Assembly: GCF_009363795.1 (NCBI RefSeq)
Contig: NZ_CP045420.1
Location: 1,779,001-1,843,000 of the forward strand
Source of the DNA: Palleronia sp. THAF1
GTDB lineage: Bacteria; Pseudomonadota; Alphaproteobacteria; Rhodobacterales; Rhodobacteraceae
Direction of reading: 5' to 3'
Length of the DNA stretch: 64,000 nucleotides
The position numbers and the translations under genes are program-made. Shown piece by piece: positions 5,627 to 27,693 of this stretch (position 1 is the first letter of the stretch; every line of letters begins with the position of its first letter). The notes under the pieces are model-generated. The model saw only the letters and a program-made list of their open reading frames with translations. It searched no databases and had not been told where the DNA came from.

Positions 5627-5692
5627 TGTGATCCTTTCGCAGGCTTGGAAGGAAGCATTATGGGACAAGTTCGTCACGGGAGCGCCACGTAC

Positions 5693-5732
5693 TGTTACCC
5701 GGCAATGGTTTGCTCGCAAACCATGAGAGGGC
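5693..5732 (-). repeat. Palindromic insert, GGTTTGC variant, in IS481 transposase
   Basis: This 40-base insert in the N-terminal coding part is best read on the minus strand: GCCCTCTC, a hairpin of ATGGTTTGC and GCAAACCAT (perfect 9-bp stem, 5705-5724, 2-base loop), then TGCCGGGTAACA. The flanks match the other inserts in this window. Its length is not a multiple of three, so it breaks the frame. Confidence 0.65.
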
Positions 5733-6284
5733 ACGCACGCCGTCAGAGCTGCAATACAGCGATCGCAAACTTCACTCGCGCAACTGAGCGAAGAGCTGGG
5801 TATCAACCCCAAGACAGTTGCGAAGTGGCGGAAGCGGCAGACGGTCGAGGACCTTAAGACCGGACCTCGAGAGCCGCGTTCGACCGTTCTGACCGAGGCA
5901 GAGGAAGCGATGGTCGTCGCGTTCCGACGCCATACGCTACTGCCGTTGGATGATTGTCTCTATGCCTTGCAGCCAACAATCCCGCATCTGACCCGGTCAG
6001 CACTGCATCGGTGCCTTCAGCGGCATGGGATCTCGCGACTGCCGGATGTCGGCGGCGACAAACCCAAGCGGCAGAAGTTCAAGCGCTACCCCATCGGCTT
6101 CTTCCATATCGATATTGCCGAGGTTCAGACGGTCGAGGGCAAGCTGTTTCTTTTCGTGGGTACTGACCGGACGAGAAAGTTTGCCGTCACCCAACTCGTG
6201 GATAAGGCGGATCGGAAGACCGCGTGGGAGTTCCTCGAGCTTCTGCTCAAGACGGTTCCCTATCGCATCCACACGATTCTCACC

Positions 6285-6325
6285 CCCTCTCGGGATCATG
6301 CTGCGCATGACCCTGTCGGGCAGTG
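6285..6325 (+). repeat. 41-bp palindromic insert at catalytic Asp of IS481 transposase
   Basis: CCCTCTC is followed by an imperfect hairpin (GGGATCATGC, three-base loop, GCATGACCC), then TGTCGGGCAGTG. It lies exactly between ACC and the GAC codon of DNGIQF, the second catalytic Asp of the DDE triad. The same 41-base unit recurs at 7649-7689 and 17390-17430. Confidence 0.75.
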
Positions 6326-6455
6326 GACAACGGCATCCAGTTCGCCGAGCAACCTCGCAACCGGAACACAGCGTCCTCCAGGCAAATGCGTCTCGACATG
6401 ATCTGCGAGGCGAATGGGATCGAGCATCGACTGACCAAGCCGAACCACCCGTGGA

Positions 6456-6500
6456 GTTCCGAGGGCCAGAAAACAGTCCGGGGGACTGTTTTCCCGAGGG
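6456..6500 (+). repeat. In-frame hairpin insert before catalytic Glu of IS481 transposase
   Basis: A perfect 11-bp stem (GAAAACAGTCC and GGACTGTTTTC, 6469-6493) with a GGG loop, bounded by CCGAGGG on one side and CCCGAGGG on the other. It replaces the usual Thr-Asn between NHPW and GQVE and keeps the frame (45 bases). Its sequence differs from the CCCTCTC family, so it is a second kind of palindromic insert. Confidence 0.65.
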
Positions 6501-6641
6501 ACGGTCAGGTCGAACGAATGAACCGCACGATCAAGGATGCTACCGTCAAACGGTACCACTACGACAGCCACGACCAACTGCGCACGCACCTTGCCGACTT
6601 CATGGCAGCTTACAACTTCGCCCGCCGGCTCAAGACGCTCA

Positions 6642-6742
6642 GTGAATAGCCCCGTGTATCGTGGACGCCTTCTTCGCTAATTTTCAGGCAAGGAGGCCAG
6701 GATGAGTAGCAACAAGTTCAGTAATGGGCGTTGTTGCACGAA
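6642..6742 (+). other. Scrap of further IS DNA between two elements
   Basis: About 100 bases lie between the truncated IS481 copy and the IS3-family left end. They contain AAGGAGG followed by ATGAGTAGCAACAAG at 6702, which looks like the very start of another transposase gene. The last bases, GGGCGTTGTTGCACGAA, resemble an IS5-type terminal repeat. Neither is long enough to name with confidence. Confidence 0.3.
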
Positions 6743-6805
6743 TGACCTGCCACGGGATTTTTCCTCCACTGTCGATTAGAGTCCGCCCCAACTTGAGGAC
6801 GGACA

Positions 6806-7072
6806 ATGAAGCGAACGAGATTCACGGACGAGCAAATCATCGGCTTCCTTGCCGAGCATGAGGCCGGCGCGAAGTGCGCGGACCTGTGCCGCAAGTACGG
6901 CATGTCGGAAGGCACTTTCTACAACTGGAAGGCCAAATTCGGCGGCATGACGGTGTCGGAGGCCAAGCGGCTGAAGGCGCTCGAGGATGAGAACGCCAAG
7001 CTGAAGAAGCTTCTGGCCGAGCAGATGCTGGATCTGGCTGCGATGAAGGATCTGGTTTCAAAAAAGTGGTAG
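6806..7072 (+). CDS. IS3-family transposase OrfA
   Basis: An 88-residue helix-turn-helix protein that binds the element ends. MKRTRFTDEQIIGFLAEHEA at the start and CRKYGMSEGTFYNWKAKFGG give the DNA-binding part (residues about 10-48). They are followed by a leucine-zipper-like coiled coil from LKALEDENAKLKKLL to LAAMKDL. The frame is intact and ends in TGGTAG. Near its end the sequence AAAAAAG (7060-7066) can support the programmed -1 frameshift that makes the OrfAB transposase. Because orfB is broken by two inserts, only OrfA could still be made; free OrfA often acts as a regulator or inhibitor in this family. Confidence 0.8.
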   Translation: MKRTRFTDEQIIGFLAEHEAGAKCADLCRKYGMSEGTFYNWKAKFGGMTVSEAKRLKALEDENAKLKKLLAEQMLDLAAMKDLVSKKW

Positions 7073-7422
7073 GGCCCGCCGTGAAGCGTGAAGCGGTTGC
7101 GTATCTTCGGGCCGAGCATGGCCTGTCTGAACGGCGGGCCTGCCATATCGTCGGCGCGGATCGAACGATGATCCGCTATCGCTCTCGGCGTGCCCCGGAT
7201 ACGGTGCTGCGCGGTCGGTTGCGGGACCTGGCCAACGAGCGCCGGCGGTTCGGCTACCGGCGCCTGTTCGTCCTGCTGCGCCGCGAGGGTGAACCCTCGG
7301 GGATCAACCGGATCTATCGGCTCTACCGTGAGGAAGGGCTGACGGTGCGCAAGCGGAAGGCGCGGCGCAAGGCGGTCGGAACGCGGGCACCGATCCTGGT
7401 CGAGGCACGGGCCAATGCACGC

Positions 7423-7462
7423 CCCCTCTCGCGGTTTGCATGCAAACCGCTGCCGGGCAGCG
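7423..7462 (+). repeat. Palindromic insert, GGTTTGC variant, in IS3 orfB
   Basis: CCCTCTC, then a perfect 20-bp palindrome of GCGGTTTGCA and TGCAAACCGC (7431-7450), then TGCCGGGCAGCG. It disrupts the codons before SLDFV, and the usual Trp codon there reads GGA, so one or two bases were altered at the junction. The core resembles the 5693-5732 insert and the flanks match all members. Confidence 0.7.
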
Positions 7463-7648
7463 GGATCGCTGGATTTCGTCCATGATCAATTCGCCAACGG
7501 CCAGCGCTTCCGGGTGCTCAACGTTGTAGACGACGTCACCCGGGAGTGCCTGGCCGCGATCCCGGACACCTCGATCTCGGGGCGCCGTGTGGCGCGTGAA
7601 CTGACGGCCCTGATCGAGCGCCGCGGGACGCCTGGCATGACTGTCAGC

Positions 7649-7689
7649 CCCTCTCGGGATCATGCTACGCATGACCCTGCCGGGCAGTG
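7649..7689 (+). repeat. 41-bp palindromic insert at catalytic Asp of IS3 transposase
   Basis: Two differences from the copy at 6285-6325 (loop TAC for TGC, and TGCCGGG for TGTCGGG). It sits exactly between AGC and the GAC codon of DNGTEL, the second Asp of the DDE triad. Its length of 41 breaks the frame. Confidence 0.75.
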
Positions 7690-8137
7690 GACAACGGGAC
7701 CGAACTGACCAGTAACGCCATCCTGCGGTGGTGTTCCGAGCACCGGGTCGAATGGCACTACATCGCGCCGGGCAAGCCGATGCAGAACGGCTTCGTTGAG
7801 AGTTTCAATGGCAGGATGCGCGATGAGCTGCTCAACGAGACCATGTTCCAGAACCTGGCCCATGCACGGGTCGTGATCGCAGCATGGGCTGCCGACTACA
7901 ACACCGAACGCCCACACTCGGCTTTGGACTACCAGACCCCGGTCGACTACGCGCGGACCCTGAACACCGCAATCGCCCGCCCCGCTGCGCGAGATGAAAG
8001 CTCCGCGCGTCGGGCGATTGCTCAACCTGCGCCAATCGGCGTAAACACCAAACGGGCTCCGGTCGCGGCTGGATGAAAGTTCAGTGGCAGGTCACAGGAC
8101 CATCGCGCAGGTCGTCACCCCGCATGAGTTGTATTAA

Positions 8138-8368
8138 AGAGCCGAAGACCTTCAACCGAGGTCCCACGGCGAAGGCATATTGGATGCCGCGGTCGAAGTG
8201 GTCGGATACCTTGGCGCTGACAGCTTTCTCATTCTCGGCACGGAAGAGGCAGGCAAGATCACCCTGCGCGCCGACGGCAACACCTCGGCGATGGTGGGTG
8301 ATAAAATCGGTCTGGCCTTGTCCGGAAAGCTGCACGCTTTCACCGAATCCAGGGCGGCCATCAGCTAG
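8138..8368 (+). pseudogene. Sugar ABC transporter ATPase (UgpC/MalK type), C-terminal remnant
   Basis: Only the end of the gene survives beside the IS3 element. The frame reads AEDLQPRSHGEG and then a TOBE-type domain (EVVGYLGADSFLILGTEE, ITLRADGNTSAMVGDKIG, KLHAFTESRAAIS) before TAG. This matches the regulatory C-terminal domain of MalK/UgpC ATPases; the Walker and signature motifs are gone. An in-frame TAA at 8135-8137 marks the break. It implies that a sugar ABC transporter once stood here and was lost with the IS activity. The remnant is probably not expressed. Confidence 0.65.
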
Positions 8369-8395
8369 GGACCGGACCAATTTCCGTCGCGGGTT

Positions 8396-9409
8396 TTACC
8401 CCGCCAAAGAGACAACTTCCCGCCAGATATCGTCGTCCACGAGGATGCCGTTCTTCTGCTGATCCATACGTGCGGCCACGGTGTTTTGGCCGGGATGGGT
8501 CACAGCGCGATTCGGGTCGGCGGGCTGTGATCCGTTCACATAGTCTACCATTCCGTTGACCGCCTGCTGCAGATGCTCGGACGTGCCAAGACGGTCGGGA
8601 TCGAACGCGATGAAGATCTGCGAACAGCCGGTGCAACTACCCTGATCAATGCCGTCGATCTGGTGCGTCGCCGACCCTTCGGACAAGGCCGCCGCCAGTA
8701 TGTCCAGCATGATGGCCAGCCCCGATCCCTTCCAGAACCCGGTAGGAAGGATCCGGCGCGACTCCTCGATCGCAACGGGATCGGTCGTCAGATTGCCGTC
8801 GACATCGAAGCCACCGGCGTAGGGCAGCTGTTCGCCCTTCAGCCGGGTCGTCTGAAGCTTGCCGTAAGAATATTGCGACATCGCCATATCCAGAACGACG
8901 GGCCCCTCTTTGCGCGGAACAGCCATGACGAACGGGTTGTTCCCCAACCGCGTGTCTTTCGCGCCCCATGCGGGCATGCAGGATTCGGTATTGGTCCAAG
9001 CGATCAGGATCTTGCCCTGCTCTGCCGCGCGCCACCCGTAAGCACCGCCGCGCATCCAGTGCGTCGTGTTGCGCAGCGCCACAATCGCCAGACCATGTTG
9101 TGCCGCCAGTTCAAGCGTCCGGTCCGTCGCCGTCAGCGCGTTCAGGATGCCGGGGCCGCGCTGGCCGTCGTAGACCTCCATCGGGCCCATGTCGCGCAGC
9201 AGAGTTGGCTCGGCGTCGGCATCGACCCACCCTTTCTGCAGATACTCCACGAAACGGGGCACCCGGTTGAGGCCGTGCGAGTAGACTGCATCCAAGCTGG
9301 ATTCGGTATGAACGCGCGCGGATCGAAGGGCCTTATCCTCTGACATGCCGGCGTTGACGAACGCCCGCGTGACCGTGCTGCACATTTCGTCGAATGCGAT
9401 CCTGCCCAT
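8396..9409 (-). CDS. dlgD: 2,3-diketo-L-gulonate reductase-like dehydrogenase (Ldh2/MDH2 family)
   Basis: An NAD(P)H-dependent reductase of 337 residues in the Ldh2/YiaK family, which reduces 2,3-diketo-L-gulonate to 3-keto-L-gulonate in E. coli. Recognisable blocks are TESSLDAVYSHGLNRVPRF (residues about 36-54), ALRNTTHWMRGGAYGW, WTNTESCMPAWGAKDTRLG and GFWKGSGLAIMLDILAA. They run parallel to E. coli YiaK as I recall it, more closely than to malate or ureidoglycolate dehydrogenases. The start at 9409 has AGGAGAAG upstream. It is the last gene of a minus-strand series with the idonate-type dehydrogenase and TRAP genes, suggesting a shared sugar-acid inducer. The exact substrate could be another 2-keto sugar acid. 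Confidence 0.75.
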   Translation of the reverse strand: MGRIAFDEMCSTVTRAFVNAGMSEDKALRSARVHTESSLDAVYSHGLNRVPRFVEYLQKGWVDADAEPTLLRDMGPMEVYDGQRGPGILNALTATDRTLELAAQHGLAIVALRNTTHWMRGGAYGWRAAEQGKILIAWTNTESCMPAWGAKDTRLGNNPFVMAVPRKEGPVVLDMAMSQYSYGKLQTTRLKGEQLPYAGGFDVDGNLTTDPVAIEESRRILPTGFWKGSGLAIMLDILAAALSEGSATHQIDGIDQGSCTGCSQIFIAFDPDRLGTSEHLQQAVNGMVDYVNGSQPADPNRAVTHPGQNTVAARMDQQKNGILVDDDIWREVVSLAG

Positions 9410-9483
9410 GATCTTCTCCTGCTTTTGTGGGTGTTATGGTTATCGAAGCCTCCTACCCATCCGACAGAGGGTCGGTGTTTTCT

Positions 9484-10533
9484 TCAATCGAAGGTCAGAT
9501 GGACCTTCACGGATTGGGTTCGGTCTGAGGCGCTGGCGAAAGCGGCCTCTGCCTGCTCAACCGGCCATGATCCGGTAATCGCAGGTCGCACGTCGACACG
9601 GCGGGCTGCAATGGCGTCGACGGCTGCGGCGAACTCTACCTCGTCGAAGCGGAAAGAGCCGAGGAATGCGAGTTCCTTGCCGACCAGCAGGTTCAGCGGA
9701 ACGGCTGTCGGCCCGGCCGAGCCGACTTGGATGAACCGTCCGCGCGGGCGCAAGCATTCGACGGCCTGAGCAATGGCGGGCGCGGCGGCGGAGCACTCGA
9801 ACACCAGATCGAACTGGCCCTTGTCGTCTTTCCACAGTTCAAGGCCCACCGGATCGGACACCGCGTTGACGACAGCCGTCGCGCCCATCTTGCGCGCCAC
9901 GTCCAGAGGCAAGTCTTGCAAGTCCGTCGTCACGATTTCCGATGCGCCCTTCGAGGCCACGACCGCCGTCATCAGCGCGCCGATGGGCCCTGCGCCCGTG
10001 ATAAGCACGCGCTTGCCGTCGATCTCCCCGGCGACACCTGCTGCGTGCAGACACACGGCCAAGGGTTCGGCACAGGCCGCTTCGGCCAAGGTCACATCGC
10101 CATTTACCCTGTGGCACTGCTTGGCCCCCACGGTGACGCGGTCACGGAACAAGCCCTGCGCGTGGGGCAGATACATGGCCGAGCCCAGAAACCGCATATT
10201 CGCACATTGGTTCGGCAGACCGCGATTGCAGAAGGTGCAATCGCCGCATGGGTGGCTGGGATTGACCGAGACCAGATCGCCGACCGACAGACCGCTGACG
10301 CCCTCACCCAGCGCGGCGACGAGGCCTGCCGCCTCATGCCCCAGAATGATCGGTTCCTGCACACGGATCGTGCCGATGCCGCCGTCGTGCCAGTAATGCA
10401 TGTCCGATCCGCAGATGCCGCCTGCGCCGATGGCGACGGACACCTGACCGGGGCCGGGAGCGGTCGGGGCTTCGGTTTCGACACGCAGATCGCCCTTGGC
10501 GTGCAAGCGGCAGATACGGATTTCGTCGGTCAT
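9484..10533 (-). CDS. idnD: Zinc alcohol dehydrogenase, L-idonate/L-gulonate 5-dehydrogenase type
   Basis: A medium-chain zinc dehydrogenase of 349 residues. The catalytic-zinc ligands are in GICGSDMHYWHDGG (residues about 38-51) and LGHEAAG. The structural-zinc lobe CGDCTFCNRGLPNQC has its four Cys, and the Rossmann motif ITGAGPIG lies near residue 175. The DMHYWHDGG stretch is typical of L-idonate 5-dehydrogenases. Related enzymes oxidise L-gulonate to D-fructuronate, which would feed directly into UxuB and UxuA encoded nearby, so that role is plausible here. The start at 10533 was chosen by family length. It stands 16 bases after the end of dctM, so it is co-transcribed with the TRAP genes. 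Confidence 0.7.
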   Translation of the reverse strand: MTDEIRICRLHAKGDLRVETEAPTAPGPGQVSVAIGAGGICGSDMHYWHDGGIGTIRVQEPIILGHEAAGLVAALGEGVSGLSVGDLVSVNPSHPCGDCTFCNRGLPNQCANMRFLGSAMYLPHAQGLFRDRVTVGAKQCHRVNGDVTLAEAACAEPLAVCLHAAGVAGEIDGKRVLITGAGPIGALMTAVVASKGASEIVTTDLQDLPLDVARKMGATAVVNAVSDPVGLELWKDDKGQFDLVFECSAAAPAIAQAVECLRPRGRFIQVGSAGPTAVPLNLLVGKELAFLGSFRFDEVEFAAAVDAIAARRVDVRPAITGSWPVEQAEAAFASASDRTQSVKVHLTFD

Positions 10534-10549
10534 CGCTGGACTTTCTGGA

Positions 10550-11827
10550 TCAGTTGGCCACGAGGCGCGGCAGCCAGGTGGACAGCGCGGGAATGTAGCT
10601 GACCGCCAGCAGGACCAGGATGTTGGTCGCAAGGAACGGCAGGATGGCCTTCACCACCGGCGTCAGAGGCAACTGCGCGATGCCCGCGCAGACGAACAAG
10701 CAGACCCCCACTGGCGGCGTGGTCAGACCGATCATCAGGTTCAGCACTGCGAAGGTGGCGAAGTGGATCGGATCGATGCCAACGGCGAACGCCAGCTGCG
10801 ACAGCGGGACGAACAGGATGATGAGCGCGGCAATGGTCTCCATGAACATACCCACGAACAGCAGCAGCAGGTTGATGATCAGGATTACGTAGAACGGGTT
10901 GGACGAGATCGACAGCACGCCATCTGCAATCGCCTGCGGAATACGCTCGGACACGAGGATCCAGCCGAAGACGTTGGCAAACCCAACCAGCGCCAGAATA
11001 CCGGCGGAGGCGATGGCACTGTCGATGACAATGCCGGGCACGGCGCGCCATGGCAGCTCTCGGTAGATCAGGCCGCCAACCAGCAACGCATAGACCGATG
11101 CCACGATGGCGGTTTCGGTCGGTGTGGCAAGGCCGGACAGCAGGCCGTAGATGATCAGGCCGGTCATCGCCAACGCCCATGATGCCGATCCGAAGGCACG
11201 TGCGACCTCTCCCCAGCCCTGCCAGCTTTGACGCGGGAAATTCTTGCGGCGTGCGATGATGTAGGCCGTCACCATCATGGCCAGCCCCATCAGGATACCG
11301 GGGATCGCGCCCGCGACGAACATCTGCCCGACCGAGATCCCGGCCAGAGAGCCGACGATGATCATCGGAACAGAAGGCGGGATGATCGGACCCACGGTGG
11401 ACGACGCTGCCGTAACCGCCGCCGAGAAGTCAGCCGGATAGCCTGCCTTTTTCATGCCGGGGATCATTACGCCCCCGATGGACGCCGCATCGGCCACGGC
11501 GGTGCCGGTGATACCACCGAACAGCATGGAGGCCGCGATATTGGTCAGCCCCAAGCCACCGCGAATCCAGCCAACGAGGGCAGACGCAAAGCGGATGATG
11601 CGATTGGTGATCCCGCCGCGGTTCATCAGGTTGCCCGCAAGGATGAAGCCCGGAATGGACAGCAGCACGAAGACGTCCATCCCCGCATACATCTTCTGCG
11701 GGATCGCCACCGGGTTCAGTCCGGTCGTCAGGATGTAGGCCAGCGAGGCCAGTCCCAGCGTCACCGCCACGGGCACGCCGATGATCAGGCCTATGATGAA
11801 GACCGAGAACAGGATCGTCACGTCCAT
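10550..11827 (-). CDS. dctM: TRAP transporter large permease (DctM)
   Basis: The 425-residue, roughly 12-helix membrane subunit that carries out Na+-driven uptake of the ligand delivered by DctP. Typical sequence includes the start MDVTILFSVFIIGLIIGVPV, GFILAGNLMNRGGITNRI, SSTVGPIIPPSVPMIIVGS and, late in the protein, NLMIGLTTPPVGVCLFV. It begins four bases after dctQ and precedes idnD, forming a dctP-dctQ-dctM-idnD-dlgD order. The length is normal for the family. The substrate is inferred from the cluster to be a hexuronate or related sugar acid. Confidence 0.92.
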   Translation of the reverse strand: MDVTILFSVFIIGLIIGVPVAVTLGLASLAYILTTGLNPVAIPQKMYAGMDVFVLLSIPGFILAGNLMNRGGITNRIIRFASALVGWIRGGLGLTNIAASMLFGGITGTAVADAASIGGVMIPGMKKAGYPADFSAAVTAASSTVGPIIPPSVPMIIVGSLAGISVGQMFVAGAIPGILMGLAMMVTAYIIARRKNFPRQSWQGWGEVARAFGSASWALAMTGLIIYGLLSGLATPTETAIVASVYALLVGGLIYRELPWRAVPGIVIDSAIASAGILALVGFANVFGWILVSERIPQAIADGVLSISSNPFYVILIINLLLLFVGMFMETIAALIILFVPLSQLAFAVGIDPIHFATFAVLNLMIGLTTPPVGVCLFVCAGIAQLPLTPVVKAILPFLATNILVLLAVSYIPALSTWLPRLVAN

Positions 11828-11831
11828 CGCA

Positions 11832-12359
11832 TCAGTCCTCTTGCCACGTGTTCAGGTTATCGGGCCGACCGTTGTTCGTACCCGCGATCATGCCAACGAC
11901 GCGCAACAGGGCGAAGAACGCGAGCAGCGCCAGCATCAGGAAAATGGTGAAATGCACGTAGGCCATCTGCCAGCCCAGCGCTGGGGACGTCTGGAAGAAG
12001 CCGATCTCGGTATAGCGCCAAGCCATCGGAAGCAGGTAAAGCCCAAGCCCGGCGACCAGAACGGCAGACACGAAGCGCATCCACCATGCGATACGCTCCG
12101 GCATCGCCTCGGATACGATATCGACATTCACAAGATCGCCCGTCCGCATCGACAGGCCAGCGCCGATGGCCGCCAGATACAGCAGAGCAAAGCGCGTCAG
12201 TTCCTCTGTCCAGACCCGCGAGTTTCCGGTCAGGCGTCCAGTCACCTGGATCAGCACGGCAACGATGAGGACAAGGAAGGCAACGCCCACAAGGGCGCGA
12301 AAAACGATGAGCACGTAACGCTCGATCAGGTGAAGGAACCGCATGGCAATCCGATCCAA
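11832..12359 (-). CDS. dctQ: TRAP transporter small permease (DctQ)
   Basis: A 175-residue, four-helix membrane subunit that pairs with DctM. The motif RVWTEELTRFALLYLAAIGA near residue 48 is the conserved amphipathic DctQ signature, followed by SMRTGDLVNVDIV. Membrane segments lie near residues 15-38, 55-72, 92-112 and 130-155. Two starts are possible (12359, or an ATG five codons later). It sits between the hairpin downstream of dctP and dctM. Confidence 0.88.
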   Translation of the reverse strand: MDRIAMRFLHLIERYVLIVFRALVGVAFLVLIVAVLIQVTGRLTGNSRVWTEELTRFALLYLAAIGAGLSMRTGDLVNVDIVSEAMPERIAWWMRFVSAVLVAGLGLYLLPMAWRYTEIGFFQTSPALGWQMAYVHFTIFLMLALLAFFALLRVVGMIAGTNNGRPDNLNTWQED

Positions 12360-12375
12360 CGGGATAAAGCACTGC

Positions 12376-12406
12376 GGGCCGCCAGACGTATCTGCGCTGG
12401 CGGCCC
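12376..12406 (-). promoter_or_regulatory. Intercistronic hairpin between dctP and dctQ
   Basis: GGGCCGCCAG and CTGGCGGCCC form a perfect 10-bp stem with an 11-base loop in the 65-base gap after dctP. A T-run occurs only on the plus-strand side. For the minus-strand operon it is therefore more likely an RNA-stabilising or partial-termination structure, which would raise DctP over the membrane subunits. Confidence 0.5.
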
Positions 12407-12424
12407 TTTCTTTTCAGACCGACG

Positions 12425-13399
12425 TTACTCGGCTTGGGCTGCGAACAGCTCTTCCACCGTCGGGCGGATCTCTTCGGCGACGTTGGACAGAACCGCTTCC
12501 TTGGCCGCTGCCGCGAAGGCCGCGTTGTCGACTTCGACGAAGGTCATGCCCTGCTCTTCCAGGTAGGCACGGTCTGCGGCTAGGCTCTCTTCGAACAGCC
12601 CACGCTCGTACTCCTGCGCGATGTCAGCCGCTTCCTGAAGCGCCTGCTTATCTTCGTCGGACAGCTGGCTCCAGGTCTGCTCGGCGATCGCCAGGTAGAT
12701 CCACGACCGCACGTGGTCGGTCAGGTTCACATGGCTCTGCACTTCCGCGAAGCTGGCCGACCGGATCAGCGCCAGCGGGTTTTCCTGTGCGTCGATGGTG
12801 CCGTTCTGCAGCGAGGTGAAGACCTCTGAGAAGGCCATCGGCGTCGGCTGAGCGCCCAGTGCGGCCCAAGTGTCGACGAAGAGCGGCACGTTCGGCACGC
12901 GCATCTTCAGGCCTTCCAGGTCGTCAAGGCTTTCGATGGCGCGGTTCGACGTCAGTTCACGCGGACCACGGGCGAAGTAGGCCAAGGGGCGCACCTGTGC
13001 GCGCTCGATGATCTGCTGCTCGATCTCGTCGCCGGTCTCGCCGCCCGCGACTTCGTCCATCTGCTCCAGCGAGCCATAGGCGTAGGGAATGGCCAGCAGG
13101 GCAGCCATCGGCGCCCAGTTCTGCAGGCTTTCGCCGGTGATCGTCATGTCAACAGTGCCAAGCTGCATCCCGTTGATCAGGTCGATTTCTTTGCCCAGCG
13201 ACTCGTTGGGGAACACTTCGACGGCAATGCGGCCTTCGGTCAGACGCTCGACCTCTTCGGCGAATTTGACGGACGCAAGGTGCCAGGAATTGTCCTCATT
13301 CGCGAGGTGTCCAAGCTGCAGCGTGCGCTCTTGGGCAGAAAGCGGACCGGCCAGCAGGGCCAGCGTCGCCACGGTTGCGAGTTTCTTCATAATAGCCAT
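12425..13399 (-). CDS. dctP: TRAP transporter substrate-binding protein (DctP)
   Basis: A periplasmic binding protein of 324 residues. A signal peptide of about 22 residues (MKKLATVATLALLAGPLSA) is followed by RTLQLGHLANEDNSWHLA. The family core is present: GRIAVEVFPNESLGKEIDLI, LKMRVPNVPLFVDTWAALGA with the arginine that usually pairs with the ligand carboxylate, and FTSLQNGTIDAQENPL. That arginine fits an acidic sugar ligand. The start at 13399 is preceded by GGAGGAG. The gene begins inside the end of the regulator gene, overlapping it by 13 bases, so regulator and transporter are one transcription unit. Confidence 0.92.
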   Translation of the reverse strand: MAIMKKLATVATLALLAGPLSAQERTLQLGHLANEDNSWHLASVKFAEEVERLTEGRIAVEVFPNESLGKEIDLINGMQLGTVDMTITGESLQNWAPMAALLAIPYAYGSLEQMDEVAGGETGDEIEQQIIERAQVRPLAYFARGPRELTSNRAIESLDDLEGLKMRVPNVPLFVDTWAALGAQPTPMAFSEVFTSLQNGTIDAQENPLALIRSASFAEVQSHVNLTDHVRSWIYLAIAEQTWSQLSDEDKQALQEAADIAQEYERGLFEESLAADRAYLEEQGMTFVEVDNAAFAAAAKEAVLSNVAEEIRPTVEELFAAQAE

Positions 13400-14142
13400 T
13401 CTGTCTCTCCTCCATGAAGTATGACCACCCGATCCTCCGCCCCATCTGGGATGGCGTCGAAAAAGTCGGGATTTCGGTGTGCGATCAGCGGCAGGTCGGC
13501 CAAGACCTCTCGCAGATGCGTGCGAAGTGCAGCCTCGGCAGCGCCAAGGTCGCCTTTCGAGATTCCGTCGACGATATCCGCATGCTGTTCGACCAACTTG
13601 GCGATCGGAAACTGTTCCAGAGACAGGAAACGAACGCGGTCCATCTGTGTCTTCAGGCCGTGCAGCTTGCGCCAGATCCCGAACTTCGCGGCAGAGTTCG
13701 CCAGCTCGCGGTGGAACGCCTCGTCAGCCACCATGAAAGCGACCGGATCGCCCGCGTCGATGCGGTTTTGTTGATCCACCAGATCGCGCAGTTTGGCGAC
13801 TGTGGCCGCATCCGATGACTGCGCCAGTACCTGCACGATGTCGGACTCCACCGACTCGCGGATGAAGCGGGCTTCGCGCACCTCGGCGATATCGATCCGG
13901 CGGATGCGCGTCGCGCGCTGCGGCAAGATCGACAGTAGGCCGTCGTCGGCAAGGCGGATGAAAGCCTCGCGTACCGGTTGGCGACTAACGCCGAACTGCG
14001 CGGCAATCTCGGATTCGGAAATCTTCTGATCAGGTTTCAAGAGGTTTCGAACGATGCGGCGACGCAGGATAGACCGCAATTGCGGCGCGATGGGCCGCGC
14101 CAGATCAATCTCGGCACCAGAGCTGTCGCGCTCTTTCAACAT
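13387..14142 (-). CDS. GntR-family (FCD) transcriptional regulator, UxuR-like
   Basis: A 251-residue regulator. The N-terminal winged helix-turn-helix covers residues about 18-85, with ISESEIAAQFGVSRQPVREA as the recognition region. The FCD effector domain (residues about 90-225) shows the metal-binding pattern in VADEAFHREL and HADIVDGI plus HLREVL. UxuR and ExuR of this class respond to fructuronate or uronates. The gene is divergent from uxuA across a 120-base gap containing a palindrome and overlaps dctP downstream, so it likely represses both directions and itself. The inducer is not known. Confidence 0.82.
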   Translation of the reverse strand: MLKERDSSGAEIDLARPIAPQLRSILRRRIVRNLLKPDQKISESEIAAQFGVSRQPVREAFIRLADDGLLSILPQRATRIRRIDIAEVREARFIRESVESDIVQVLAQSSDAATVAKLRDLVDQQNRIDAGDPVAFMVADEAFHRELANSAAKFGIWRKLHGLKTQMDRVRFLSLEQFPIAKLVEQHADIVDGISKGDLGAAEAALRTHLREVLADLPLIAHRNPDFFDAIPDGAEDRVVILHGGETEWLL

Positions 14143-14173
14143 CGATTCGTCCTCCCCTGCGGACTTGCTACCA

Positions 14174-14189
14174 TACTGCCATACCAGTA
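14174..14189. promoter_or_regulatory. Candidate operator of the GntR regulator
   Basis: The inverted repeat TACTG-CCATAC-CAGTA lies midway in the 120-base divergent gap between the regulator and uxuA. Spacing and position suit a dimeric GntR/FCD repressor. This is pattern evidence only. Confidence 0.4.
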
Positions 14190-14262
14190 CACAAGATATG
14201 TGGAATCGCTTAGCGGCGCCGATGGTTTGCGGTCGCCAATACGGGCTTTACGGGAGGATGAG

Positions 14263-15474
14263 ATGCGCGAGACTTGGAGATGGTTCGGACTGCAGGACCT
14301 TGTGTCGATAGAAGACGTCCGCGAGGCCGGGGCCAGCGGGATCGTCACGGCGCTTCATCACATCCCGACCGGGCAGGTCTGGTCGCGCGCCGAGATCGCG
14401 AAACGCAAAGCCGAGATTTCCAAACGCCGCGACGGTCGTCCCTCCGGCCTGCATTGGGACGTCGTGGAAAGCTTGCCGGTGTCGGAGTCGATCAAGATGC
14501 GCTCTGGCGCGTGGCGCGCGCACATTGACGGCTACATCGAGAGCATGCACAACCTGTCGGCAGAGGGCATAGAGACGATCTGCTACAACTTCATGCCCGT
14601 GCTGGACTGGACGCGCACGAATCTGGCGCATGAGGTCGAAAGCGGCGCGACCTGTATGCGCTTCGACCTTATCGATTTCGCCGCCTTCGACCTGTTCATC
14701 CTAGAACGCGACGGAGCTACGTCCGACTTCGACGCCGCATTGACCGCAAAAGCGCAGCGCCGGTTCGACGCAATGACGCCTGACGATCAGGAGGCCATGG
14801 CGCGTAATGTAGTGTTCGGGTTGCCAGGCGCTGCCGAATCCTTCTCTTTGGATGACGTGCGCGCGCTGTTGGCCGACTACGCCCAGATCGGCCCGGACAC
14901 TTTGCGCGGGAACCTTATCGAGTTCCTGAACGAAATTGCGCCCGTCGCGGAAGAACTGGGGATACGCCTCTGCTGCCACCCCGATGACCCACCCTTCCCG
15001 CTTCTGGGCCTGCCCCGCATCATGTCGACCGAAGCCGATTACGCCAAACTGATGACAGCCGTGCCCAGCGCCGCCTCTGGCATCACTCTCTGCACCGGAT
15101 CGCTGGGCGCGCGGGGGGATAACGACCTGCCCGGCATGATCGACCGGTTGGGCGATCGCATCCATTTCCTACATCTGCGCAACGTCACGCGCGAAAGTAC
15201 CGAGATCCGCGGCTCGTTCCACGAAGCAGAGCATCTGGGCGGAGACACCGATATGGTCGCCGTCATCGCCGCCGTCCTGCGCGAAGAGGTGCGGCGGCGC
15301 GACGCGGGGCGCGCAGATGCGTCCATCCCGTTCAGACCCGATCACGGGCAGGACATTCTGGATGACAAGTCCCGCAAGGCGCAGCCGGGCTATCCGGCCA
15401 TTGGACGCCTTAAGGGGCTGGCGGAACTGCGGGGCGTCATCGCGGCCCTTAGCCATGAAAGTGTATCGTTGTGA
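14263..15474 (+). CDS. uxuA: Mannonate dehydratase
   Basis: Dehydrates D-mannonate to 2-keto-3-deoxy-D-gluconate, the last cluster-encoded step of the isomerase-type uronate pathway. The 403-residue protein shows MRETWRWFGLQD, ASGIVTALHHIP, GIETICYNFMPVLDWTRT (residues about 100-120), LCCHPDDPP and FLHLRNVTRE with FHEAEHLGGDTD. The His/Cys/Asp metal ligands lie in the last three blocks. The start at 14263 follows GGGAGG; a much longer open frame upstream is not the gene. Its stop overlaps the GTG start of uxuB, so the two are translationally coupled. The length is normal for the family. Confidence 0.93.
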   Translation: MRETWRWFGLQDLVSIEDVREAGASGIVTALHHIPTGQVWSRAEIAKRKAEISKRRDGRPSGLHWDVVESLPVSESIKMRSGAWRAHIDGYIESMHNLSAEGIETICYNFMPVLDWTRTNLAHEVESGATCMRFDLIDFAAFDLFILERDGATSDFDAALTAKAQRRFDAMTPDDQEAMARNVVFGLPGAAESFSLDDVRALLADYAQIGPDTLRGNLIEFLNEIAPVAEELGIRLCCHPDDPPFPLLGLPRIMSTEADYAKLMTAVPSAASGITLCTGSLGARGDNDLPGMIDRLGDRIHFLHLRNVTRESTEIRGSFHEAEHLGGDTDMVAVIAAVLREEVRRRDAGRADASIPFRPDHGQDILDDKSRKAQPGYPAIGRLKGLAELRGVIAALSHESVSL

Positions 15475-16955
15475 GCAGACTGAAAACCATCGACGACATC
15501 CCGAGCGGCGTGCAGATTCCCGCCTACGACCGCGATGCCCACGGTACAGGCATCGTTCATCTTGGCCTTGGCGCGTTCCACAAGGCGCATCAAGCCGTCT
15601 ATACCGACGACGCACTCGCAGCCGAAGGCGGCGACTGGCGCATCACGGGCGTCAGCCTGCGCTCGGCCGATGCAGTTGAGGAGCTGCGTCCTCAGAACGG
15701 CCTCTTCACCGTTATCGCGGCAGGGGCAGACGGCACGTCGGCGCGTGTGATCGGGTCCGTTGCACAGACGCTGGCCCACGCTCATGGCGACGCCGGCCGC
15801 GTTCGCGCCGCCCTGGCCAGCCCCGCGACACGGATCGTGACGATCACGGTGACAGAAAAGGGCTATGGCCTTGACCGCGCCACCGGCGGCATCGATCCGG
15901 CGCATCCGGCCATTGCCCACGATCTGGAACACCCGGACGCACCTGCCGGGGTTGCGGGCCTTCTGGTTCAGGCTTTGGCTACACGTCGTGCCGCAGGTAA
16001 TAAGCCCTTCACCATCCTGAGCTGCGATAATCTACCTAACAACGGAAAACTGACGCGCGGCTTGATCCTCGATTTTGCCGCGTGCTTCGATCCGGAGCTG
16101 CGGGATTGGATCGCCGAGAATGTCGCCTTCCCTTCTTCCATGGTCGATCGCATCACACCGGCAGCAGCTGCTGATCTCCCGGCAAAGGTCCGCGGTATCT
16201 TTGGCCGCGACGATCACGCTGCGATCGAAACTGAAACGTTTTCCCAATGGGTCATCGAGGATCACTTCCCCACCGGTCGCCCCGCTTGGGAAGCGGGTGG
16301 CGCGCTGTTCGTGGATGATGTTGCGCCCTACGAAATGATGAAGCTACGGATGCTGAACGGCACGCACTCCATGCTGGCCTATGCCGGCTTCCTGTCCGGG
16401 CATCGTTATGTGCGAGACGTCATGCAAGATCCTGACTTGGCGGCGCTGGTGCGAAGGCATCTGGCTTCTGCGGCGAAAACCTTGCCACCGCTGAACGGAA
16501 TAGACTTTGACGTCTATGCCGCCGATCTGATCCGCCGGTTCGAGAACCCCAACCTTGACCACGAAACCTACCAGATCGCCATGGACGGCACCGAAAAGCT
16601 GCCCCAGCGTATCTTCGCCCCCGCTATGGATGCATCGCGCGCGGGTCAGAAAACGGGTGCCTTCGCATTCGCGACCGCCGCCTGGATGCGGTACTGTAAA
16701 GGTAATCGTGACAATGGCTACGACCACGCGCTACGCGACCCACGGGAGGACGAGATTGCAAACCGGATTGCAAATCTGATCGACGCATCCGCTATTGCGC
16801 AGGCTCTTTTCACCCTCCCGAGCTTTGTGCCAGAAGCGTTGAAATTTGATGCGCCTTTCCGCGAACAGGTGACCGAAATTTTGTTCGAAATGCTGTCAGC
16901 CTCAACTTCGAATTGCATCGCCCAAGAAGTTCTAACAATTGAAAGTAATCTGTGA
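15471..16955 (+). CDS. uxuB: Fructuronate reductase / mannitol dehydrogenase family
   Basis: NAD-dependent reduction of D-fructuronate to D-mannonate, which UxuA then dehydrates. This is a long-chain polyol dehydrogenase of 494 residues: the dinucleotide site IVHLGLGAFHKAHQAVY is at residues about 28-44, and the catalytic Lys and His are in MMKLRMLNGTHSMLAY near residue 290. It starts at GTG 15471, overlapping the uxuA stop by four bases. The C-terminus (QEVLTIESNL) ends only three bases before the IS903-type element. The last residues could therefore have been altered by the insertion, although the overall length is normal. Mannitol or arabinitol dehydrogenase activity is less likely given the partner gene. 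Confidence 0.88.
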   Translation: MSRLKTIDDIPSGVQIPAYDRDAHGTGIVHLGLGAFHKAHQAVYTDDALAAEGGDWRITGVSLRSADAVEELRPQNGLFTVIAAGADGTSARVIGSVAQTLAHAHGDAGRVRAALASPATRIVTITVTEKGYGLDRATGGIDPAHPAIAHDLEHPDAPAGVAGLLVQALATRRAAGNKPFTILSCDNLPNNGKLTRGLILDFAACFDPELRDWIAENVAFPSSMVDRITPAAAADLPAKVRGIFGRDDHAAIETETFSQWVIEDHFPTGRPAWEAGGALFVDDVAPYEMMKLRMLNGTHSMLAYAGFLSGHRYVRDVMQDPDLAALVRRHLASAAKTLPPLNGIDFDVYAADLIRRFENPNLDHETYQIAMDGTEKLPQRIFAPAMDASRAGQKTGAFAFATAAWMRYCKGNRDNGYDHALRDPREDEIANRIANLIDASAIAQALFTLPSFVPEALKFDAPFREQVTEILFEMLSASTSNCIAQEVLTIESNL

Positions 16956-17021
16956 AATGGCTCTGTTGCGCAAATCGGGTTGGAAATTCGTCTCGTGAAT
17001 CCAGCGTGATAGCTGGCGATT

Positions 17022-18003
17022 ATGAGCAGACCGACACCCCCGAGCTACAAGATCAAGAACTGGGCGGCCTATAACGAAGCGCTCAAGCGCATCGCTTCGC
17101 GACCTCGCTGACGATCTGGTTTGATCCCGAGATGACATGGGAGGCGACTCCGACGGGCAAGCGCGGCCGGCAGCGGACGTATAGCGATCGTGCTATCCAG
17201 ACCTGCCTGACGATTACAGTGCTGTTCGACTTGGCCCTCCGGCAGACAACCGGCTTTGTCGAAAGCCTCCTGCAACTGAGCGGGCTGGACTGGACGGTGC
17301 CGGATTTCAGCACGCTGTCCCGCCGTCAGAAGACACTGGACGTGAGCATACCTTATCGTGGGTCGGAGGGACCGCTGCACCTTCTGATCCCCTCTCGGGA
17401 TCATACTTCGCATGACCCTGCCGGGCAGCGGACAGCACCGGGATCAAGGTCGAGGGCGAAGGGGAATGGAATGCCCGCAAGCATGGCGGCGCCAAACGCC
17501 GTGTGTAGCGCAAGGTTCACCTCGGGATTAACGAGAAAGCTCTGGAAATTCGGGCAGTCGAGTTCACCAGCAGCGACATCGGCGATGCGCCCATGCTGCC
17601 CGAATTGCTCAACCAGATCCCGCCCGACCAGGAGATCGGCAGCGTCACTGCGGACGGCGCCTACGACACCCGAAAGTGCCACAATGCCATCGCCGACCGG
17701 GGCGCTGCCGCTGTCATTCCGCCCCGCAAGAACGCCAAACCCTGGAAGCCGGACACGGCTGGCGCGATTGCGCGCAACGAGGCCCTCCGCGCATCGAAAT
17801 ACCTCGGCCGAGCGCTCTGGCGGAAATGGAGTGGCTACCACCGCCGAAGTCGCGTCGAGACGAAGATGCACGGCATGAAGCTGCTGGGCCCACGGCTGAT
17901 GGCACGTGACCCAGACCGTCAGGTCGCCGAGCTTCAGGTTCGTATCGCCGTCATGAACGGTTTCACCGCGCTCGGCATACCCATCACACAGGTCGTGGGA
18001 TAA
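17022..18003 (+). pseudogene. IS903-group transposase, multiply broken
   Basis: Compared with the intact 310-residue copies at 20786 and 26707, the frame is lost three ways. An 8-base expansion after GCGCTCAAGCGC (about 17091-17107) shifts the frame. The 41-base palindromic insert (17390-17430) sits directly before the catalytic DSTG motif. A TGG codon has become TAG near 17505, where intact copies read RRVWRKIHIG. The downstream part still shows VTADGAYDTRK (second Asp) and SRVETKMHGMKLLG (Glu). It also differs from the intact copies at many silent sites, so it is an older or separate lineage. Confidence 0.8.
17390..17430 (+). repeat. 41-bp palindromic insert at catalytic Asp of IS903-type transposase
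   Basis: CCCTCTC, the imperfect hairpin GGGATCATAC / GCATGACCC with a short loop, then TGCCGGGCAGCG. It lies exactly between ATC and the GAC codon of the DSTG motif, the first Asp of this family's DDE triad. The two intact copies of the same element in this window give the empty-site sequence, so the boundaries are directly visible. Confidence 0.85.
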
Positions 18004-18057
18004 GCGCGTCCGGGGAAAGGGGAAGCTTGCCCATCAGTCGATTTGCGCAACAGAGTC

Positions 18058-19799: not shown

Positions 19800-20849
19800 G
19801 GCTCTGTTGCACAAATCCACTGCTGAGCGGCCTTCCCCTTTCCCCGGACGGGCTCATTCTACGGCTTCAGTGACAGGAATGCCGAGCGCGGTGAAGCCGT
19901 TCAGGACGGCCACACGGACTTGGAACTCCGCAACCTGCCGGTCGAAGTCGCGCGCCATGAGGCGCTGACCCAGCAGTTTGACACAGTGCATCTTTGTCTC
20001 GACGCGGCTTCGGCGGTGGTAGCCGCTCCATCGTCGCCAGATGGTTCGGCCGAAGCGTTTCGATGCGCGTAGGGCTTCGTTGCGGGCGGCCGCCCCGGGG
20101 CTGTCGGGCTTCCAGGGCTTGCCATTCCTCCGAGGCGGAATGATCGCAGCAGCGCCACGAGCAGCGATGGCATCGTGGCACTTGCGGGTGTCGAAGGCTC
20201 CGTCAGCGGTGACGCTGGCGATCTCCTGATCAGGCGGTATCTGGTCGAGTAGCTCGGGCAGCATGGGCGCATCGCCCACAACGCTTGTGGTGAACTCGGC
20301 GGCGCGGATTTCCAGTGTTTGCTCGTCAATACCGATGTGGATCTTGCGCCAGACCCGACGCTTCGTGCCACCGTGCTTGCGTGCATTCCACTCCCCTTCG
20401 CCCTCGACCTTGATCCCGGTGCTGTCGATCAAGAGGTGCAGCGGCCCTTGTGAGCCACGATAGGGTATGTTGACCTTCAGGGACCTCTGGCGCCGCGACA
20501 GCGTGCTGAAGTTGGGCACCGCCCAGTTAAGGTCGATCAGCCGCAGGAGGCTTTCGACGAACCCTGTCGTTTGCCGCAGCGCCATGCCGAACAGCACCTT
20601 CATGGTCAGGCAGGTCTGGATCGCGGCATCGCTATAGTCAGGCTGTCGACCGCGTTTGCCGGTCGGCGCAGCCTCCCAGATCATGGCTGGATCGAACCAG
20701 ATCGTCAGCGAGCCGCGGCGCTTGAGCGCTGCGTTATAGGAAGGCCAGTTCTTGGTCTTGTAGGCGGGGGGTGTGGGTCTGCTCATGCCCTCGGGCTACC
20801 ACGCTGGATTCACAAGATGAATCCCTCACCGGATTTGTGCAACAGAGCC
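19800..20849 (-). mobile_element. IS5-family (IS903-group) element, copy 2, intact
   Basis: 1050 bases with perfect 19-bp terminal repeats (GGCTCTGTTGCACAAATCC inward from each end) and a 9-bp target duplication. It carries one full transposase gene. It interrupts the integrase reading frame and is apparently identical to copy 3 at 26644-27693 in the opposite orientation. Confidence 0.93.
19854..20786 (-). CDS. IS903-group transposase (copy 2)
   Basis: A DDE transposase of 310 residues. It starts MSRPTPPAYKTKNWPSYN, and the DDE_Tnp_1 core carries LLIDSTGIKVEGEGEW (first Asp near residue 120), SVTADGAFDTRKCHD (second Asp near 193) and SRVETKMHCVKLLG (Glu near 260). All three acidic residues are present and the frame is unbroken, so this copy could be active. 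The length matches IS903 transposases. The protein is identical to that of copy 3. Confidence 0.93.
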   Translation of the reverse strand: MSRPTPPAYKTKNWPSYNAALKRRGSLTIWFDPAMIWEAAPTGKRGRQPDYSDAAIQTCLTMKVLFGMALRQTTGFVESLLRLIDLNWAVPNFSTLSRRQRSLKVNIPYRGSQGPLHLLIDSTGIKVEGEGEWNARKHGGTKRRVWRKIHIGIDEQTLEIRAAEFTTSVVGDAPMLPELLDQIPPDQEIASVTADGAFDTRKCHDAIAARGAAAIIPPRRNGKPWKPDSPGAAARNEALRASKRFGRTIWRRWSGYHRRSRVETKMHCVKLLGQRLMARDFDRQVAEFQVRVAVLNGFTALGIPVTEAVE

Positions 20850-20858
20850 CCTTCCCGA
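20850..20858. repeat. Target-site duplication, right copy
   Basis: The second copy of CCTTCCCGA, directly beyond the right end of IS903-type copy 2; together with 19791-19799 it defines the insertion point in the integrase gene. Confidence 0.9.
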
Positions 20859-21765
20859 CAATCGCGGATTCCTCCGCCTCACGGAAATCGTTACTTTTTT
20901 CCACCTCTGGGGAGTCGATTGCCGCGATGCACGGCAGATCAGTTAATGAGGGGCCGAGTGCCTTCGCCACAGCGTCCTGAACTTCCTCAATGTTCCGCGC
21001 ATTCAGAGCAGCCGGGATCTCCATGGAGGCTTGCCAAGCGATCGCTCTCGCGCGGTGAACACCTTCGAAAACCTTCATCTGTGCAAGAGGCGCTTCAGGT
21101 CGCTTCCCGGTTATCTGTTCAAAAGCAGCGCACTGCTTGTTTCTCCAGCCTTCGTTGACCGTTTCAGCAGCGAAGAGCGCGAGCATTCGATCCACGGAAG
21201 CTCGGAAGTCGGCATCGTTTCCGTCCCCGCCAAGATCGGATACGATCTGATCGCTGACTTGGGCGCCCAGGCCATCGCGCGCAATCAGTTGTGCGGCAAT
21301 CGTCGTGGCGAGCTCACCGCGACGATATGCGATCGGATCTTCCGCGAAATTGCGCGCGACCACCCGCTTGTCCTCGATCATCCTCAGTAGATCGTCGCGC
21401 TTCCTTTGGATGAACACGCGCATCTCTTTCGAGGTCGGGGCGCAGGTCGAGGCGGTTTCCAGCATGTCGTCGAACTCAGAGCTCAATATTCGTGCCATCT
21501 TACGCGCGAGATGGAGATCTGTCGTTCCTAAGGACACCTGGACGGAGCAGAAACCTGTGGATTGAGCCGGCAGCCGTCGCCGCCAGGTCCAGACGGCCCC
21601 GCGCCTGAACATATGAGTTTGTATTGTCATCTCGCGCCTCCTTGAGACGCGGTCCGGACACCTGTCGACCCACTGGCGTGCGACACCAATGTGCGACACG
21701 CCTGTGCTACATGAGCGAAGCTACGAAAGTAGTTTCACTAATAAAACAATGACTTGCTGCTGTAT

Positions 21766-26386: not shown

Positions 26387-26641
26387 TCATGGCCGCCGCG
26401 AGTTGGCTTCATCTCGACTTAGTTGATCGTCGGCAGGAAGCTGACCGCGATATTTCTGCATTCCGTCGAGGGCTTCTTCCAAACTCTTTTTGCGCCGCAC
26501 GATGGCGATCAACCTATCAACTGCCTCAGGGTCATGTGGCCGATCACGTACACTCGTCCTGACTACGAACGCTACGAAGGCGAGACCCAGAACAGCCGAC
26601 GTGATATAAACAGAAACAAAAATGATTTCGAATGACGTCAT
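26387..26641 (-). CDS. Small single-pass membrane protein
   Basis: An 84-residue frame starting MTSFEIIFVSVYITSAVLGL with one membrane helix (residues about 5-27), then a charged tail with AVDRLIAIVRRKKSLEEALD. I do not recognise a family. Its ATG lies two bases from the end of IS903-type copy 3, so its ribosome-binding site and promoter have been replaced by IS sequence and expression is doubtful. The composition is coding-like and the membrane helix is clear. Confidence 0.5.
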   Translation of the reverse strand: MTSFEIIFVSVYITSAVLGLAFVAFVVRTSVRDRPHDPEAVDRLIAIVRRKKSLEEALDGMQKYRGQLPADDQLSRDEANSRRP

Positions 26642-26643
26642 GA

Positions 26644-27693
26644 GGCTCTGTTGCACAAATCCGGTGAGGGATTCATCTTGTGAATCCAGCGTGGTAGCCC
26701 GAGGGCATGAGCAGACCCACACCCCCCGCCTACAAGACCAAGAACTGGCCTTCCTATAACGCAGCGCTCAAGCGCCGCGGCTCGCTGACGATCTGGTTCG
26801 ATCCAGCCATGATCTGGGAGGCTGCGCCGACCGGCAAACGCGGTCGACAGCCTGACTATAGCGATGCCGCGATCCAGACCTGCCTGACCATGAAGGTGCT
26901 GTTCGGCATGGCGCTGCGGCAAACGACAGGGTTCGTCGAAAGCCTCCTGCGGCTGATCGACCTTAACTGGGCGGTGCCCAACTTCAGCACGCTGTCGCGG
27001 CGCCAGAGGTCCCTGAAGGTCAACATACCCTATCGTGGCTCACAAGGGCCGCTGCACCTCTTGATCGACAGCACCGGGATCAAGGTCGAGGGCGAAGGGG
27101 AGTGGAATGCACGCAAGCACGGTGGCACGAAGCGTCGGGTCTGGCGCAAGATCCACATCGGTATTGACGAGCAAACACTGGAAATCCGCGCCGCCGAGTT
27201 CACCACAAGCGTTGTGGGCGATGCGCCCATGCTGCCCGAGCTACTCGACCAGATACCGCCTGATCAGGAGATCGCCAGCGTCACCGCTGACGGAGCCTTC
27301 GACACCCGCAAGTGCCACGATGCCATCGCTGCTCGTGGCGCTGCTGCGATCATTCCGCCTCGGAGGAATGGCAAGCCCTGGAAGCCCGACAGCCCCGGGG
27401 CGGCCGCCCGCAACGAAGCCCTACGCGCATCGAAACGCTTCGGCCGAACCATCTGGCGACGATGGAGCGGCTACCACCGCCGAAGCCGCGTCGAGACAAA
27501 GATGCACTGTGTCAAACTGCTGGGTCAGCGCCTCATGGCGCGCGACTTCGACCGGCAGGTTGCGGAGTTCCAAGTCCGTGTGGCCGTCCTGAACGGCTTC
27601 ACCGCGCTCGGCATTCCTGTCACTGAAGCCGTAGAATGAGCCCGTCCGGGGAAAGGGGAAGGCCGCTCAGCAGTGGATTTGTGCAACAGAGCC
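26644..27693 (+). mobile_element. IS5-family (IS903-group) element, copy 3, intact
   Basis: 1050 bases with the same perfect terminal repeats as copy 2 and the opposite orientation. The flanks (ACGTCATGA left, CTTTTTCGG right) do not match, so the 9-bp duplication expected for simple transposition is absent. The junction probably arose by recombination between copies, with loss or inversion of the intervening DNA. Confidence 0.9.
26707..27639 (+). CDS. IS903-group transposase (copy 3)
   Basis: A full-length 310-residue DDE transposase identical in protein sequence to copy 2. The catalytic motifs DSTGIKVEGEGEW, TADGAFDTRK and SRVETKMH are all present. Because the copies are identical and inverted they can recombine and invert the 5.8 kb between them. 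The copy is intact and potentially active, and lies between the small membrane-protein gene and the second integrase fragment. Confidence 0.93.
   Translation: MSRPTPPAYKTKNWPSYNAALKRRGSLTIWFDPAMIWEAAPTGKRGRQPDYSDAAIQTCLTMKVLFGMALRQTTGFVESLLRLIDLNWAVPNFSTLSRRQRSLKVNIPYRGSQGPLHLLIDSTGIKVEGEGEWNARKHGGTKRRVWRKIHIGIDEQTLEIRAAEFTTSVVGDAPMLPELLDQIPPDQEIASVTADGAFDTRKCHDAIAARGAAAIIPPRRNGKPWKPDSPGAAARNEALRASKRFGRTIWRRWSGYHRRSRVETKMHCVKLLGQRLMARDFDRQVAEFQVRVAVLNGFTALGIPVTEAVE

Follow-up and report, generated by a model that had tools for sequence, protein, structure and literature searches.

Hairpin units in transposase genes of Rhodobacterales: a probable non-autonomous mini-element residing mostly in insertion sequences

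Bacterial group II introns often lie inside other mobile elements, and the small dispersed repeats of cyanobacteria are very small, hairpin-forming and mobile. Insertion sequences (ISs) of the IS200/IS605 group have a hairpin, unlike ends and a short one-sided motif, and make no target duplication. According to the passages cited here, IS200/IS605 and repetitive extragenic palindrome (REP) systems act on folded single-stranded hairpins, a guide model exists for IS200/IS605 and a bulge is described in the stem of the E. coli REP (PMC8266576); the part of the literature cited on REP tags places a tetranucleotide, GTAG or CGTC, at the base of the palindrome (PMC3733652). We analysed a stretch of 64,000 nucleotides (nt) of Palleronia sp. 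THAF1 (contig NZ_CP045420.1, positions 1,779,001 to 1,843,000; hereafter the window), in which a short palindromic unit beginning with CCCTCTC interrupts transposase genes of unrelated IS families. At title and abstract level, no description of the CCCTCTC unit was found in the literature. We lean towards reading the units as a non-autonomous, hairpin-based (REP-like) mini-element of Rhodobacterales, mobilised in trans, inserted mostly in ISs and spread with the ISs that it breaks.

A pattern search of the window gave five unit matches, compared with 0.01 expected from shuffles, and the whole genome of Palleronia sp. THAF1 gave 15 matches (11 with a stricter pattern) and none with the reversed pattern; chance can therefore be ruled out as the source of the units. 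All five window units lie inside transposase genes; an earlier sequence-only reading had likewise found none outside such genes.

The three units which that reading had described, each 41 nt long with a 22-nt hairpin and on the plus strand, are exactly placed: 6285-6325 between ACC and GAC in an IS481-type gene (ILT^DNGIQF), 7649-7689 between AGC and GAC in the orfB of an IS3 element (VS^DNGTEL) and 17390-17430 between ATC and GAC in an IS5-type gene (LLI^DSTGIK). Each is preceded by a codon whose last base is C, is followed by a GAC codon and, because of its length, breaks the frame. Two units with 20-nt hairpins had been overlooked, one at 5693-5731 on the minus strand (pattern match 5696-5731), antisense in the IS481-type gene close to its start, and one at 7424-7462 on the plus strand, at the Trp codon of W-S-L-D in the IS3 orfB, a non-catalytic position. 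The claim that the units sit exactly before a catalytic Asp codon is correct for three of the five and fails for these two.

The broken IS481-type transposase region extends from 5640 to 6649 on the plus strand, as judged by alignment with a Pseudosulfitobacter relative; of its three pieces, the last matched Pfam family rve_3 and the other two matched none. The pieces of the IS3 orfB, broken by two units (7066-8076, plus strand), matched HTH_21, rve, rve_3 and rve_2, and the Sagittula relative of the gene is annotated as an IS3 family transposase. The unit-bearing IS5-type element (16959-18057, plus strand), with matches to DDE_Tnp_1_5 and DDE_Tnp_1 in its pieces, has exact IS ends and is 99% identical to a second copy with equally exact ends on the minus strand at G000:C1:1742937. 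Besides the unit it has a stop codon (17506-17508). A small hairpin-like insertion close to the beginning of the gene (about 17091-17104, within 17085-17110) is common to both genome copies and may be the relic of an arm-less unit.

Intact homologues provided empty sites. When the IS3 gene was compared with the annotated IS3 transposase on a plasmid of Sagittula sp. P11, a clean 41-nt gap was seen at VS^DNG; the unit at the Trp site is also absent from this relative, the bases beside it differ and that end is less clear. The two units of the IS481-type gene correspond to gaps in the Pseudosulfitobacter relative, that at 6285-6325 being a clean 41-nt insertion. The IS5-type unit is likewise a clean 41-nt insertion relative to ISPko1 and to a unit-free copy in the window (26629-27693, plus strand), which served as the empty site. 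The sequence-only reading was right that the unit is missing there, but its "two intact copies", this one and another on the minus strand at 19800-20864 (open frame of 313 amino acids, no unit), are relatives at about 78-82% and not copies of the same IS. At the same IS5 Asp codon, an IS on a Leisingera plasmid holds a unit whose hairpin differs.

In 223 comparisons of flanking frames with homologous open frames, the net insertion equalled the unit length in 59 and was off by one in 20; most of the others are hits on the very frame that bears the unit, and both strands were counted for some units. Insertion takes place in both orientations and mostly neither removes nor duplicates target bases. 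Codon replacement, in which the unit would take the place of three bases, had been suggested by the Trp site and by Lys/Asn sites and was discarded, the insertion being exact in most informative comparisons.

The unit consists of CCCTCTC, a hairpin of variable sequence (15-26 nt) and TGYCGGGCAGYG, 34-45 nt overall, and its ends are unlike, with no inverted repeats. A foldable hairpin between the arms was present in 141 of the 187 distinct matches collected; the other 46 comprise many unrelated chance matches and some weaker units. Over five length classes, 91-98% of the pair cells of the hairpins were paired, versus 66-73% after shuffling, figures that the hairpin folding filter inflates somewhat. 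Compensatory exchanges occur in the stem (for example G-C, C-G and T-A at a single position), and in the 22-nt class stem position 4 is an unpaired A in 63 of 66 copies. In one locus (L003, minus strand near 1219) a unit in an IS5-type gene has its hairpin and right arm partly duplicated in tandem.

These features place the unit close to several known systems. With REPs and their transposase TnpA-REP (REP-associated tyrosine transposase, RAYT) it shares a mobile palindrome of tens of bases and, as far as the cited description of the E. coli REP goes, an irregular stem, with an unpaired A here and a bulge in that REP; like REPs and REPINs, it has a hairpin of conserved structure. Unlike these, the units have no tag of the GTAG/CGTC kind described in the cited source, their arms being CCCTCTC and TGYCGGGCAGYG; REPs are extragenic, whereas at least 108 of 194 units lie inside IS genes; and a cognate Y1 gene flanked by the repeats is not seen in the Palleronia genome, which has no Y1 match. 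With none of these three REP features present, we did not class the unit as a REP. It resembles IS200/IS605 derivatives in its hairpin, unlike ends, lack of target duplication and adjoining short motif, although the motif is weak, and differs from them in having a single hairpin and no cognate enzyme that could be found. Miniature inverted-repeat transposable elements are similarly small, non-autonomous and repeated, but the units have neither terminal inverted repeats nor a target duplication. The cyanobacterial repeats resemble the units in general description; their sequences and hosts differ. Unlike group II introns, the unit has nowhere near the length needed for an intron RNA, and its copies lie in either orientation.

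The strict pattern was found in 93 of 394 Rhodobacteraceae genomes, and the reversed pattern once in each of four. Among the matches listed, carriers include Ruegeria, Sulfitobacter, Leisingera, Salipiger, Sagittula and Jannaschia and, outside the order, Vreelandella neptunia; on plasmids, the unit occurs in Dinoroseobacter shibae, Phaeobacter and Pseudosulfitobacter. The unit family is an element of marine bacteria.

Host genes were assigned for 194 copies, the 141 above and 53 from 40 stretches of two unit-rich genomes, the second of which was sampled in part. Frames homologous to Pfam-confirmed transposase or IstB references contained 108 of these copies; nine matched an IS481-type reference that has a sub-threshold helix-turn-helix match only, eight matched references outside Pfam confirmation and two lay in C5 methylase genes. 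By eye, we judge that about 85-90% of the units are in ISs. Some IS genes hold three to five units. At L150:3700-4643, five units lie within about 950 bases of IS3-type sequence, four oriented one way and one the opposite way. In the phage-like contigs L165, L174 and L181, units with different hairpins occupy one site, or lie near it, in C5 cytosine methylase genes.

The preference extends beyond transposase coding sequence. Four IS110-type loci with the same surroundings (L188:5958-5994; L094:1983-2023, with its twin L216; L038:1501-1537; L031:1501-1537) have units with four different hairpins at one site, for which L062 is the unit-free counterpart; a Salipiger IS110 match is 39 bases shorter, by match length alone. 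In L038, L188 and L094/L216 the unit stands 141-143 bases beyond the IS110-type frame, which is open in L188. This non-coding site is possibly the region of the IS110 guide RNA; four IS110-type loci matched no Rfam family at its threshold. Taken together, the units are found mostly in ISs and not scattered through ordinary genes and intergenic DNA, and they seem to have a strong preference for ISs in themselves, the non-coding end of IS110-type elements included, which neither alternative of the sequence-only reading (a mini-element with a target preference, or dedicated silencing) had anticipated.

The target itself was derived from 183 sites differing in their 20-nt flanks, 154 of them non-redundant at 75% flank identity. 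The motif, C^GATGG, holds about 3.7 bits in all. At 34 non-redundant sites a catalytic codon could be recognised no more than 250 bases away. When all positions up to that distance on both strands were ranked by motif score, the actual site had a median rank of 0.021, and in 17 of the 34 cases its rank was 0.02 or less. Two other cues were rejected: hairpin-encoded targeting, since hairpins and flanks had no excess of shared or complementary k-mers, and folding of the target, which equalled background at 137 sites.

The 154 distinct sites also bear on the possibility that the inserts descend from one or a few recombination events among IS copies. Almost the same hairpin is found at the same site in some divergent ISs (L043, L076, L152), as such events would leave it; against this, the sites are non-redundant and in unrelated IS families, the junction flanks diverge and one site may hold different hairpins, so that this origin is hardly credible.

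At these 34 sites the unit touches the catalytic codon in seven, where 2.9 are expected from the motif and 1.4 if positions were uniform (z 2.6). This comparison uses hand-written catalytic motifs and a target motif that comes from the very sites tested. In sense orientation the catalytic codon was touched at six of 25 sites (2.2 expected) and in antisense at one of nine (0.7 expected). The coincidence is real in part, the enrichment at catalytic codons beyond the motif being modest, and the match with the catalytic Asp is mostly a consequence of C^GAY, which spells an Asp codon in one of the two orientations. The suggestion that a mini-element has a target preference which happens to fall on conserved codons is for the most part correct, C^GATGG in the sense of the gene often being an Asp codon.

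The IS preference, the seven sites at catalytic codons and a second hairpin family described below, which is also found at transposases and in two cases at a catalytic Glu codon, would also suit a dedicated host mechanism that silences transposons by placing hairpins in transposase genes. This proposal fared poorly: 27 of the 34 sites lie away from catalytic codons; 47 of the 108 units whose orientation could be assigned are antisense; three to five units in one IS gene would be superfluous; six of the nine full-length IS5-type copies in the Palleronia genome are unit-free with open frames; and C5 methylases and other genes are also struck. We regard dedicated silencing as improbable.

For 108 of the 141 copies an orientation could be assigned: 61 are in sense and 47 in antisense, or 47 and 30 if the count is restricted to clear cases. 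Unit-bearing ISs have been amplified: besides the two copies of the Palleronia IS5-type element, one genome (G013) has six copies of an IS, each with two or three units, and among the matches listed no further full-length copy (40 of 60 candidates scored), and another (G055) has four copies with two units each. Such elements, in which all listed full-length copies bear units, made it attractive to view the unit as a tiny intron or a translationally bypassed segment within transposases that are still active, and when ISs that share a unit site were compared, the low ratio of nonsynonymous to synonymous substitutions (dN/dS) pointed the same way. The low dN/dS was dropped as a sign that the unit is tolerated, since it can predate the insertion. 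The unit lengths fall in all three frames, the antisense copies remain unexplained by such a reading, and the amplified ISs share independent stop codons: both Palleronia copies have the stop codon and the small insertion in common, and the same stop codon recurs in each of the four copies of the G055 element. An intron or bypassed segment was accordingly abandoned as very improbable. Because their copies share independent stop codons, the unit-bearing IS5-type and G055 elements were most likely moved by a transposase acting in trans.

For the mini-element that we favour, the steps may be pictured as follows. By analogy with IS200/IS605 and TnpA-REP, an enzyme provided in trans would recognise the hairpin and arms, probably as single-stranded DNA, cut the DNA next to the target, which reads CCATC on the complementary strand, and insert the unit; the broken ISs would then be multiplied by a transposase in trans, with the units carried along. 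Transposition through single strands fits the hairpin, the unlike ends, the absence of duplication and the one-sided motif.

Several observations weigh against this mini-element reading. The search for an enzyme yielded no candidate: the Palleronia genome has no match to the Y1 transposase family (PF01797), and elsewhere the association was weak, Y1_Tnp occurring in six of 27 unit-rich versus one of 27 unit-free genomes and Y2_Tnp in ten versus two. Since the IS load differs as well (median of 8 rve matches in unit-rich and 4 in unit-free genomes), the association is confounded, and Y1 or Y2 transposases were dropped as the enzyme. Two unit-free genomes are rich in ISs (26 rve matches in G045 and 21 in G046), so ISs alone are insufficient for units to occur. 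Inspection by eye demonstrated no guide-like pairing with the cleavage site, and flanking bases are altered at some junctions. For 67 of the 194 copies no reference matched and the host gene is without confirmation; the Pfam tally of 131 of 261 peptides from these copies gave mainly transposase families (HTH_Tnp_1, DUF4096, Y2_Tnp, Transposase_mut, rve_3 and others), with a few RelE, phage capsid E, methylase, TraG-type, Rhs and RNase H matches, and when ten stretches of loci that were doubtful or had no resolved host were checked singly, nine gave no family. Among 60 plasmid matches listed, 53 have no listed gene underneath, four fall on a transposase, one on a hypothetical protein and two in records without annotation; this gene table is not decisive on unit hosts because it omits pseudogenes.

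Inspection of eight Y1 loci showed a nearby unit at one, L216, where it stands about 450 bases off within an IS110-type flank. An autonomous version with an internal gene was also considered and rejected, the single match among the loci being two neighbouring units. By eye, the genes recurring near units at 108 loci were transposases and some ordinary genes, with no enzyme candidate.

At 3.7 bits, the target motif is too weak to explain the bias towards ISs. The likeliest cause would be insertion into single-stranded or circular transposition intermediates, together with the tolerance of damage there. We put forward tentatively, and well short of an even chance, that integration is directed to ISs as such, for example through such intermediates, which would make the unit a transposon parasite, propagated along with the very copies that it inactivated.

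Insertion without any targeting, followed by loss from useful genes, would also leave copies mainly in ISs, which are dispensable, multiplied and transferred, so that the units would be hitchhikers. The amplified unit-bearing ISs (two copies in Palleronia, six in G013, four in G055) agree with this, as do the other unit hosts, which are accessory genes too (methylase, RelE, capsid, TraG, Rhs). However, with 154 of 183 sites non-redundant, the copying of a few events fails to explain the IS share; intergenic copies, which should be tolerable, are few among those resolved; and several units occur within one IS gene. We consider untargeted insertion somewhat unlikely.

If the preference for ISs is true, the units would add another tier of parasitism to bacterial genomes, in which elements some 40 bases long reside in transposons, inactivate them and are carried by dead copies moved in trans. 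They would offer a natural system for learning how insertion can be directed to transposons, and would account for a class of frameshifted transposase genes in Rhodobacterales.

A second hairpin family, unrelated to the CCCTCTC unit, was found in eight of 120 genomes; outside the window its loci are L151 and L320-L332. In the window it is an insert at 6456-6501 on the plus strand, with the core GAAAACAGTCC NNN GGACTGTTTTC at 6469-6493, placed before NGQVER in the region of the catalytic Glu of the IS481-type gene. If integration of the CCCTCTC unit is directed to ISs, this family would be an independent case of the same lifestyle. By eye, its copies in L324, L326 and L329 seem to be intergenic or otherwise outside ISs, and that in L327 is ambiguous. 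The copies in the window, L151, L320, L321, L322, L325 and L328 were found, also by eye, in transposase genes, those in L321 and L328 at the catalytic Glu codon of an IS3 element.

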